From Alkalicoccus halolimnae (GTDB lineage: Bacteria > Bacillota > Bacilli > Bacillales > Salisediminibacteriaceae), in contig NZ_CP144914.1 in the NCBI RefSeq assembly GCF_008014775.2, positions 930,001-994,000 of the forward strand: a DNA stretch of 64,000 nucleotides, given 5' to 3'. Within the stretch, counting starts at the first letter, position 1. Each line of letters starts with the position of its first letter. The position numbers were made by a program, and so were the translations under genes. Under the pieces are notes generated by a model that was given only the letters and a program-made list of their open reading frames with translations, did not search any database and was not told where the DNA came from. This document shows positions 38,397 through 41,016 of the stretch, one piece after another.

Positions 38397-38744
38397 ATGA
38401 GCGGAAAAATGAGATTTGAAGTATCAGGAAAAGCAAAAAATATGACTGCTGAACTGCAGGCTAAAAACCATACGATAATTATTGACGAGCCGGCAGAAAT
38501 GGGAGGCGCGGATAAAGGACAGGATCCGCTGTCCAATATGCTCGCTTCGCTTGCAGGCTGTGAAAATGTGATCGCGAATATGGTCGCAAAGGAAATGATG
38601 TTTAGATTCAAGCAAGTGTGAGCACGTCAGAATCAGAGAAGCGTATCCAGGAGCTAAAACAGAAAACGGACTCGAGATGTCCGGTCTATACGACATTTGA
38701 AGCCGCTAATATTCCTATTACGGCCACGTGGACCCGTGCTTAAT
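38397..38744 (+). pseudogene. Broken OsmC-family gene (internal deletion and frameshift)
   Basis: The N-terminal half (38397-38621, ATG with AGGAGG upstream) reads as an OsmC-like peroxide-resistance protein up to GCENVIANMVAKEMMF and then meets a stop at 38619-38621. The C-terminal part is present in another frame (about 38608-38744: SVSTSESEKRIQELKQK, then SRCPVYTTFEAANIP, with the second catalytic Cys). Roughly 35 residues between them are missing. Each half keeps one of the two redox Cys regions (CEN and CPVY), so the gene was functional in an ancestor. Confidence 0.8.
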
Positions 38745-38751
38745 AAAAAAA

Positions 38752-38784
38752 CAGCTCTCACAGAAAAAAGTTCTGTGGGAGCTT
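38752..38784 (+). terminator. Terminator after the broken osmC
   Basis: AGCTCTCACAGAA with TTCTGTGGGAGCT (one G-T pair), loop AAAAG, then TTTGT. Confidence 0.75.
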
Positions 38785-39003: not shown

Positions 39004-39630
39004 ATGAAGGATATGGTAAAAGCGCTGTATTTGAACGGATCCCTAAAGAACAGCAGCGAGCCTTCCCACACATCGGGCCTGCTTCACAAAGCGACGGAAT
39101 GGTTTACTCACCTGGGGGTGGAAACAGAAGAAATTCGTTTAGCGGACTACCGCATTCTTCCCGGAATGGCACCGGATATGGGAGAGGGGGATGAGTGGCC
39201 GCAAATTATGCAAAAGGTGCTGGCGGCTGATATTTTAATCGTCGCCACGCCCATTTGGATCGGAGAAAAAAGCAGTGTCTCAACGCTTGCGATGGAACGG
39301 CTATATGCCTCCAGCGGAGAAAAGAACAGCGAAGGACAGGCGATTTATTACAATAAGGTGGGAGGAGCCGTCGTAACAGGGAATGAAGACGGCGCGAAAG
39401 AATCAGCGAAATCGATTCTGTACGGGCTGTCCCATATCGGCTTCACTGTCCCGCCGAACGTAGACGCCTACTGGGTAGGAGAAGCAGGTCCGGGACCGTC
39501 TTATCTGGAAACCGGGCAGGACAACGCCTTCACGATCAAAAATACTAAAATGATGGTCCACAACCTCGTTCACTTTGCCCGTATGCTGAAAGAAAACCCG
39601 ATTCCTGCAGAAGGGAATACAGGAGAGTAA
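39004..39630 (+). CDS. NADPH-dependent FMN reductase-like flavoprotein
   Basis: 208 residues with a flavodoxin fold: phosphate-binding loop LYLNGSLKNSS near the N-terminus, ATPIWIGEKSSVSTLAMERL and GGAVVTGNEDGAKESAKSIL. It is probably a flavin or quinone reductase in the cytosol. ATG 39004 and ATG 39013 are both possible and no clean SD decides between them. It ends 136 bp before the redoxin gene and could share its promoter. Confidence 0.85.
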   Translation: MKDMVKALYLNGSLKNSSEPSHTSGLLHKATEWFTHLGVETEEIRLADYRILPGMAPDMGEGDEWPQIMQKVLAADILIVATPIWIGEKSSVSTLAMERLYASSGEKNSEGQAIYYNKVGGAVVTGNEDGAKESAKSILYGLSHIGFTVPPNVDAYWVGEAGPGPSYLETGQDNAFTIKNTKMMVHNLVHFARMLKENPIPAEGNTGE

Positions 39631-39766
39631 AGATGATAAATGCGGGAAATGAGGGGAAAACCTTAAAACGTCACTTTCCTTAAACGCACTGGCAAAATGG
39701 CTGAAGGAACGTGAAATTGAGGAGCTCTTTAGAATTTATAAATATAATATGCGAGGAGGAATACGG

Positions 39767-40522
39767 ATGTTGCTAGACAAAATTGAAAATATCGCCTTAA
39801 CTGATTTAGAAGGAAATACCGTCTCCCTTCATGATTTTCACGGTAAAAAGACGTTAATTTTTATGTGGGCTTCCTGGTGACGATGCAGAGGACAGCTGCC
39901 AGGGTGGCAGCAGCTATATGATAGAAAAATAGGGGAGAATTTCGAAATTTTATCCGTAGCGGTCGATGGCCAGGGTGCCGGGACCGTAAAGCCTTTCTTA
40001 AAAGAAACGACTTTTCCTACGGTAATAGATGAAAACAATCAATTAGTAAATTTGTTTCAGTTCAAAAAAATCCCTAATGGAATATTTATTGATGAAGAAG
40101 GTACGATCCGGCTGCTCAAAGAAGGATTCGATGTGGCAGACCCTGCGGATGTCAAAGCGGTGGAACAGTTGATCAGCGGGGAAGCAGAAACGGTGAATTT
40201 TGATAAAAGTCATAATGGCAGCCAGGAAACCGGTCTTGAACTTCAGCTGGCCCAGACCAAATACAAACTGGGTATGGAGTACGCCAGACAGAAGAGAGAC
40301 ACGGAAGCGTTGAAAGAGCTGGACGATGCTGTTCTATTGGACCCGGATAATTTTACGATACGGAAACAGCGCTGGCAGATCCGTTTTCCGGAAAAATTTG
40401 GTTCTGAAATTGATTTTGACTGGCAGCAGGAGCAGCTTCAAAAAGAAAAAAAGCAGGAAGATCTTCATAGAAGCCAGGGACTGGTCTGCGGGCCGGATGG
40501 CTGCTTTCTTCCTGGAAGCTAA
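39767..40522 (+). CDS. Redoxin (thioredoxin-fold) selenoprotein candidate with in-frame TGA at codon 38
   Basis: A continuous 251-codon frame interrupted only by TGA at 39878-39880. N-terminal part: AhpC/TlpA-like (LEGNTVSLHDFHGKKTLIFMWASW), then TGA, RCRGQLPGWQQ, the thioredoxin segment FPTVIDENNQ and KIPNGIFIDEEG, a helical TPR-like part (LGMEYARQKRDTEALKELD) and CGPDGC near the C-terminus. TGA stands exactly where the first Cys of the WC-motif is expected; Cys40 follows as U-R-C. A SECIS-like hairpin lies at 39895-39911. GAGGAGG precedes the ATG by 7 bases. If not selenocysteine, it is a pseudogene by a nonsense change of a Cys codon, but the frame is otherwise undamaged. Confidence 0.75.
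39895..39911 (+). promoter_or_regulatory. Candidate bacterial SECIS hairpin
   Basis: GCTGCC (39895-39900), loop AGGGT, GGCAGC (39906-39911): a perfect 6-bp stem whose loop starts 20 nt after the TGA. The published rules for bacterial SECIS elements (apical loop of 3-14 nt with a G in its first two bases, 16-37 nt from the UGA) are all met. The lower stem is only weakly paired. Confidence 0.65.
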
Positions 40523-40578
40523 GTAAGGAACTCCGTAGCATCAATAACAAAACAGAAGAATAGCAGATTTCAATAGAA

Positions 40579-40617
40579 AAACCACTGGAGGATAAGTTGT
40601 TCTCCGGTGGTTTTTTT
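40579..40617 (+). terminator. Terminator of the redoxin gene
   Basis: AACCACTGGAG with CTCCGGTGGTT, 11-base loop, seven T residues. Confidence 0.88.
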
Positions 40618-41016
40618 AGGCTGGCTGCTTTCTAAAGAAAGAAGACCCTTTTTGATCATCATTTACTCCATCTGTACAGAGAGGAAGTTCTTTTCCTGTA
40701 CAAGGATATTTTTCATCCCTTCTGGTGCAGGGGTCCTGAATGAGTGGCTCTGTGCAAGCTGCCTGTTGTTTTTGAGTGTCCGGGGCTTTTTTTTCTTCGC
40801 GGCAAGCGAAACAACTACCCCTGTATTAATAACTTTATCACTCATGTACCTGGTTCTATTCCCGTTATACGAGAAAACATTAGAATATGTAAATGTAATA
40901 CCGCTTACGGATTGTCAGACCAAAAAATCGTTAAGCTGGTCTTGAGGAAAGGTATTAAGAAGAGTAAGGATGGATAAAGAAAAATAGTGTTTTTTGGAAA
41001 ATATTAATTGGCCTGC
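40618..41016. repeat. Gene-free stretch with decayed family A/B fragments
   Basis: 40655-40760 shows traces of the family A right part (GAGAGGAAGTTCTTTTCCTG, CCCTTCTGGTGCAGG) and 40760-40830 of family B (GCCTGTTGTTTTTGAGTGTC, CTTCGCGGCAAGCGAAAC). The rest to 41016 holds nothing recognisable. Confidence 0.45.

Follow-up and report, generated by a model that had tools for sequence, protein, structure and literature searches.

Results

A redoxin reading frame interrupted by a single TGA

A reading frame for a redoxin in the genome of Alkalicoccus halolimnae is broken by one TGA at the place where related enzymes carry their nucleophilic cysteine, raising the question of whether this codon is a stop or is read as selenocysteine (Sec, U). 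We investigated the locus within a 64,000-nucleotide stretch of contig NZ_CP144914.1 (positions 930,001 to 994,000; hereafter the window, numbered from its first letter). Translation of the plus-strand frame gave 251 residues ending in TAA (40520-40522), and its only internal stop is the TGA of codon 38, as the first-pass annotation of this DNA had described. The surrounding residues read FMWASW-U-R-C-R-GQLPGWQ, and a gene caller using the standard code would stop this redoxin at residue 37. The good Shine-Dalgarno sequence noted earlier is also present, and the features of the locus are collected in Table 1. The proposed terminator stands in part: a hairpin and T run can be read by eye, but our terminator scan, with a loop limit of 8, listed none there (the loop is 11). 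An Rfam scan of 39600-40700 returned one sub-threshold small RNA match over the terminator (24.1 of 60 bits, E = 0.21), which we took as chance.

Table 1. Features of the redoxin locus (window positions)
Feature	Position	Strand	Basis
Predicted selenoprotein gene, Sec at residue 38	39767..40522	+	translation; full-length orthologues
Shine-Dalgarno sequence AGGAGG, ATG 7 nt downstream	39754..39759	+	letters
UGA codon 38, predicted to be read as Sec; aligns with first Cys of ResA/StoA CxxC	39878..39880	+	
Cys40, presumed resolving partner of Sec38 (U-x-C)	39884..39886	+	invariant in 14 rows of alignment A2
Predicted SECIS stem, 5' arm CTGCC	39896..39900	+	39/39 aligned sequences pair at all 5 positions
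Predicted SECIS apical loop AGGGT, 20-21 nt after UGA	39901..39905	+	
Predicted SECIS stem, 3' arm GGCAG	39906..39910	+	pairing; codon constraint at L44 and Q48
Redoxin domain (AhpC-TSA / ResA-TlpA thioredoxin fold), residues 4-115	39776..40111	+	Pfam and PDB matches
TPR-like helical region, residues 156-236	40232..40474	+	TPR_2 below cut-off; model helices
C-terminal CGPDGC, second candidate redox pair	40487..40504	+	CxPxxC in orthologues
Terminator-like hairpin and T run	40578..40617	+	letters, stem read by eye

Nearby in the window, at 38397-38760, lies a gene that we take to be OsmC-like and that is apparently frameshifted, with its start in one frame and the DSRCPVYTTFEAANIPITATW piece in another. 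Its first piece had no Pfam match.

The host encodes a complete Sec decoding system

The host genome is a single 3.69-Mb contig, and a genome search recovered selA (519 bits), selD (400 bits), selB (378 bits) and tRNA-Sec (61 bits), all above their curated cut-offs. The machinery whose absence would have spoken against Sec decoding is thus present, with the sel genes lying within 5.4 kb of each other, between 1,968,271 and 1,973,604. ARAGORN likewise called a tRNA-SeC with anticodon tca. The host selD has an in-frame TGA of its own (GUGCK; L062:6210-7289), and given this UGA the Sec machinery would itself need Sec. SelD is listed as a Sec protein with motif UxxK in the available sections of a recent inventory (PMC13188914). 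The formate dehydrogenase alpha (FdhA) model had three matches in the host genome, one of them above the cut-off, and because none contains an internal stop, FdhA is apparently not among the Sec clients of this host. As to the capacity for Sec decoding, the earlier remark that few Bacillaceae are known to make selenoproteins did not hold up, since 28 of 35 family genomes and 181 of 397 genomes sampled from the order have selA.

The TGA is conserved in 45 of 45 distinct homologues

We searched samples of 35, 397, 398 and 398 genomes at the level of family, order, class and phylum, with cut-offs of 1e-10, 1e-25, 1e-18 and 1e-22, respectively; the alignment searches scored up to six candidates per genome. 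Some named loci and sampled genomes look like the same genomes under different labels, so we rely on counts of distinct proteins.

The nearest named orthologue, from Alkalicoccus saliphilus, is 96% identical, and the family genomes have seven full-length orthologues with one TGA each, at 54-100% identity when the window's own is counted. A scan of contigs yielded eight full-length loci (L053-L060), from two Alkalicoccus, three Planomicrobium, Salsuginibacillus, Bacillus sp. SG-1 and one record labelled Pseudomonas, as well as one locus (L061) with the C-terminal part only. The record titled Pseudomonas sp. ISL-84 (L060) places within the Bacillales part of the tree, and its assembly may be mislabelled or contaminated. 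At the order level, 32 of 397 genomes from 14 families gave a match at E 1e-25, 30 of them full length and two C-terminal remnants. Among the 36 matches listed for this sample, 31 are orthologues of full length, and every one of them has a single TGA (31/31); the others are one paralogue, two proteins resembling the NCBIfam family NF041054 that also carry a TGA (G184, G249), and two C-terminal parts (G031, G079). The class sample added five full-length carriers with one TGA each (G882, G853, G887, G821, G1119) and a frame broken by a run of N (G816). In the phylum sample the only carrier was the window's own genome (1/398). A plasmid search turned up weaker relatives in 146 records; in no case did the match reach 80% of the query, so this search yielded no annotated orthologue.

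To the loci collected we applied a motif that left the residue at the U position free and required the U-x-C spacing. This picked 45 distinct proteins (42 orthologues and the three paralogues L051, L102 and L103), with U in 45, Cys in none and any other residue in none; two proteins that the motif missed, L113 and L115, also have U. The residue after U is R in 41 of the 45, K in L058, Q in L114 and G in L102 and L103. We found no Cys orthologue in the sampled genomes (35, 397, 398 and 398, with at most six candidates scored in each). Lower-scoring Cys-type proteins align with the N-terminal domain alone, and look like ordinary ResA-type CxxC redoxins (17 seen). The TGA is therefore not private to this strain: aligned homologues have a Sec codon at this position in 45 of 45 cases, where ResA and StoA have Cys, and in full-length homologues the part downstream is intact. 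A sequencing error at the codon, raised as a concern in the first-pass annotation, cannot account for a TGA that dozens of independently sequenced genomes share.

The host paralogue (C1:689654-690325; L051, also collected as L109) is 41% identical and has one TGA as well. It reads VWGSWURCRDQLP around the Sec codon and has the same SECIS stem, without the CGPDGC tail. Three loci (L061, L106, L107) comprise only the C-terminal TPR-like/CGPxGC part, so a locus can lose its redoxin part; they may be relics of such loss or represent a module that exists in its own right. Fragments resembling an IS3-type transposase were seen by eye 5' of L061.

Carriers of the redoxin gene in the order sample also carry selA

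In the order sample selA is present in each of the 32 carrier genomes, even the two that keep only a remnant, compared with 181 of the 397 genomes overall (hypergeometric p = 2.4e-12, relatedness ignored). In one genome (G206) selB and selA are followed by the redoxin gene on the same strand, and at two Planomicrobium loci (L054, L056) the redoxin gene lies directly 3' of selA. A neighbouring selA was seen at 4 of 43 loci, from three genomes, a count that may miss others with most flanks being 1.5-3 kb; other loci examined had varied neighbours. Within the order sample, 149 genomes have selA and neither the redoxin gene nor a remnant.

A hairpin downstream of the UGA is constrained at the RNA level

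A CTGCC-AGGGT-GGCAG hairpin follows the UGA. It can gain one pair on either side, giving 5-7 bp in all, and the A and T of its loop may also pair to leave a GGG loop. The first-pass annotation had placed a stem twenty nt downstream of the UGA; the hairpin is real, but that distance is the one to the apical loop (20-21 nt), and the stem itself begins after 14-15 nt. Bacterial SECIS elements are described as having a loop of 3-9 nt with a G in the first two positions, 16-37 nt from the UGA, and an upper stem of 4-16 bp (PMC13188914, available sections). The hairpin lies within these limits for loop, stem and spacing, as the annotation had proposed for the loop and the spacing.

Folded as a single sequence, the element does not stand out from chance: shuffling a 45-nt piece gave folds at least as good as the native one in 43 of 200 cases, and shuffling a 71-nt piece did so in 14 of 200. 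We therefore turn to the comparison between relatives that the annotation had suggested. The five core stem pairs form in 195 of 195 cells of the homologue alignment (39/39 distinct sequences) and hold in 45 of 45 once later loci are added, while sliding the stem by 1-3 columns leaves 16-84% of cells paired. Among the 39 sequences, pair 19-33 changes from CG to UA five times and to UG twice, pair 21-31 to UG once and pair 22-30 to UG four times. The TTG/CAA state requires at least four changes on the tree, or two when well-supported branches alone are counted. Because a tree-aware covariation test has only two well-supported pairs available (p = 0.5), too few changes for significance, we place weight on the pairing and on codon constraint.

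Codon use was compared across 86 conserved columns. Leu44 is the most constrained (G = 89), with 27 CTG, 6 TTG and 1 CTT among 34 non-redundant orthologues, while CTG makes up 13% of Leu codons elsewhere in these genes. Gln48 is second (G = 27; next column 22), and the two codons sit in opposite arms of the stem. Judged from these alignments, codon choice is a stronger test of the predicted hairpin than tree-aware covariation, and it demonstrates selection on the hairpin at the RNA level. The conserved residues LPGWQ are also encoded by the stem, so part of the stem's invariance is protein constraint.

We also ran a simple hairpin scan on 40 family members and, as a control, on the 17 Cys-type redoxins. 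The best hairpin lay at the same place in 40 of 40 family members (scores 12.5-19). Three of the controls had no hairpin and 14 had some hairpin, with the loop at an offset of 34-35 in eight, 32 in two and 23, the family's place, in four. Control scores ranged from 0 to 16, six of 17 reaching 12.5 or more, the level of the weakest family members. Hairpin strength thus overlaps with the control and is an incomplete discriminator; the family is distinguished by the single hairpin place (40/40) together with the codon constraint.

Within the loop (columns 24 and 27 of alignment A4), a T-ending Pro or Ser codon always occurs with GGA and CCC with a G-ending codon, while CCA occurs with all four partners. 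This pattern is possibly covariation within the apical loop.

The protein has a thioredoxin fold with a shortened active site

Pfam matched the N-terminal domain to AhpC-TSA (2e-15) and Redoxin (1.1e-11), and a profile of 14 homologues matched ResA, StoA and TlpA chains among PDB sequences. In the alignments, U38 falls on the first and Cys40 on the second Cys of the ResA/StoA CxxC, with one intervening residue missing; the TGA thus occupies the nucleophilic Cys position, as had been claimed. An AlphaFold model from nine sequences (pLDDT 85.7, pTM 0.76; five models, 57.8 to 85.7) has a thioredoxin fold with a helix (39-53) after the active site, followed by helices at 156-236 and a tail. The first Foldseek matches were 3kcm, 3gl3 and ResA, with TM scores (target) of 0.83-0.84 to ResA 1su9. 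The protein therefore resembles ResA and TlpA in having a thioredoxin fold with the active site at the N end of a helix, but has U-x-C, one residue shorter, in place of CxxC. The helical region gave a TPR_2 match below the cut-off (20.3 of 27 bits). The second CxxxxC pair reported downstream is the C-terminal CGPDGC; a CxPxxC tail is found in 40 of 42 orthologues (40 of 45 counting the three paralogues); L096 and L097 have an altered version, and L051, L102 and L103 lack the tail. By eye, no N-terminal signal sequence is evident, and for this reason the protein is probably cytosolic.

Alternative readings of the locus

If the TGA were a true stop, the locus would be a pseudogene, or would encode a 37-residue peptide and a separately started C-terminal protein of 156 residues. 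The standard code does end the frame at the TGA, an open reading frame of 156 aa beginning with TTG at 40052 follows, and some relatives retain the C-terminal part only. Yet that TTG frame begins within the redoxin domain, the TGA stands in 45 of 45 distinct homologues between residues conserved on both sides, the codons just 3' of it are constrained at the RNA level, and selA is present in 32 of 32 carriers, making a true stop scarcely credible. TGA conservation and codon constraint likewise led us to reject a pseudogene or sequencing error, and reassignment of TGA to another residue was set aside in view of the alignment of codon 38 with Cys and the complete Sec system of the host.

Other alternatives accept Sec decoding and concern what kind of protein is made. 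One is that the redoxin is simply a member of NF041054, a ResA-like WAxxUGC selenoprotein. That model is the best NCBIfam match (9.9e-36), with the same U-x-C-R position and the same order of a redoxin followed by a TPR-like part, and the NF041054-like proteins L102 and L103 have the same SECIS stem. Against this, the protein scores 123.7 bits against a cut-off of 300 (three orthologues 114-121, paralogue L051 69), although L102, at 281 bits, falls short as well, which marks this as a stringent threshold for closely related members too. It has 251 residues against 354 in the model, lacking the N-terminal ~80, and has R rather than G between U and C (WASWURC, not WAxxUGC); L102 and L103 are without the CGPxGC tail, and both kinds coexist in genomes G184 and G249. 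We consider simple membership rather improbable, and the coexistence suggests sister families. An AhpC-TSA-type peroxidase, rather than a disulfide oxidoreductase, would agree with the top Pfam family and with the several known selenoproteins that are peroxidases (PMC13188914, available sections). The Sec-peroxiredoxin motif given there is TxxU, however, while the motif here is WxSWUxCR and aligns with the ResA/StoA CxxC, and the closest folds are ResA, DsbE-like and other thioredoxin-family proteins; a peroxidase is therefore unlikely, if still a reading with some chance of being right.

Discussion

The gene very probably encodes a selenoprotein in which SelB and the hairpin would direct Sec to residue 38 of a ResA/TlpA-fold thiol-disulfide oxidoreductase with a U-x-C active site, a TPR-like part and a C-terminal CGPDGC. 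Taken by itself, Sec decoding of codon 38 is near certain from the genomic evidence, and relatives in many Bacillus-like bacteria almost certainly use the same UGA for Sec. The machinery, the conserved TGA and the codon-constrained hairpin all support the original proposal that the UGA is read as Sec in a U-x-C motif, and from these and the homology we infer actual Sec insertion.

We propose that SelB carrying Sec-tRNA would recognise the hairpin, which spans positions 18-34 when numbering starts at the U of the UGA, and that codon 38 would then be decoded as Sec. Sec38 would be the nucleophile attacking a disulfide (or a sulfenate or peroxide), and Cys40 would resolve the selenenylsulfide in the shortened motif. 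Judging from CXC motifs in general, U-x-C spacing should give a strained, oxidising Se-S link. The TPR-like region may bind a partner, and the C-terminal CGPDGC may relay electrons to or from the active site. We likewise infer the kind of substrate, disulfide rather than peroxide chemistry, the cytosolic location, and these roles of the TPR-like region and tail.

How does this protein relate to known systems? It shares its fold and active-site position with ResA, StoA and TlpA, but has U-x-C where these have CxxC, has a TPR-like region and Cys tail in addition, and shows no signal sequence. ResA, StoA and TlpA oxidoreductases are membrane-anchored or extracytoplasmic. NF041054 (WAxxUGC_long) likewise combines a redoxin domain, Sec-x-Cys followed by Arg, and a TPR-like C-terminal part, but is ~100 residues longer and has UGC where the window protein has URC; it is perhaps the 'UGC-containing TlpA disulfide reductase family protein' in Table 1 of PMC13188914. 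Its relatives L102 and L103 (from G184 and G249) are longer; they read WASWUGCR with an in-frame UGA and share the CTGCC/GGCAG stem, so the predicted SECIS may predate the split between the two kinds. Two selenoprotein groups, Prx-like (UGC-containing; pfam00578, motif UGC) and Prx-like UXC, are also peroxiredoxin-like with U-x-C, but were reported from metagenomes of the ocean (PMC2398784 and PMC1088965), and the available text of these papers mentions neither Bacillales nor a C-terminal Cys pair. Thioredoxin-like selenoprotein Sec.2 shares the UxC motif and belongs to a different Pfam family (PF13192; PMC13188914, Table 1).

A 2026 inventory comprises 119 prokaryotic selenoprotein families, the UGC-containing TlpA family included, and no Bacillales redoxin of the present kind is recognisable in its available sections (PMC13188914). 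No NCBIfam model of June 2026 was passed by the window protein, NF041054 being the nearest, and we found no description of this redoxin family in the literature searched (open-licence papers); that the family is not catalogued rests on these searches. Selenoproteins are mostly recognised through Cys-containing relatives, and a family with UGA in every member found would be one that such recognition may miss. The authors of deep-Sep state that their method may miss selenoproteins without Cys relatives (PMC12013277, available text). An earlier survey held that the Sec trait is largely maintained by FdhA or SelD, and put the number of Bacillales selenoproteins at 3 (Zhang et al. 2006; PMC1794560, available text). 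We advance only tentatively, as a possibility somewhat short of probable, the broader reading that this is an uncatalogued, Sec-only redoxin family of Bacillales and their relatives, without Cys orthologues and so missed by pipelines that depend on Cys/Sec pairs, and that with its paralogue, and not FdhA, it is the main reason for keeping the Sec machinery in lineages which, like this one, have no UGA-containing FdhA. The redoxin family would then help to account for the use of Sec decoding by organisms whose formate dehydrogenase contains no Sec or that have none.
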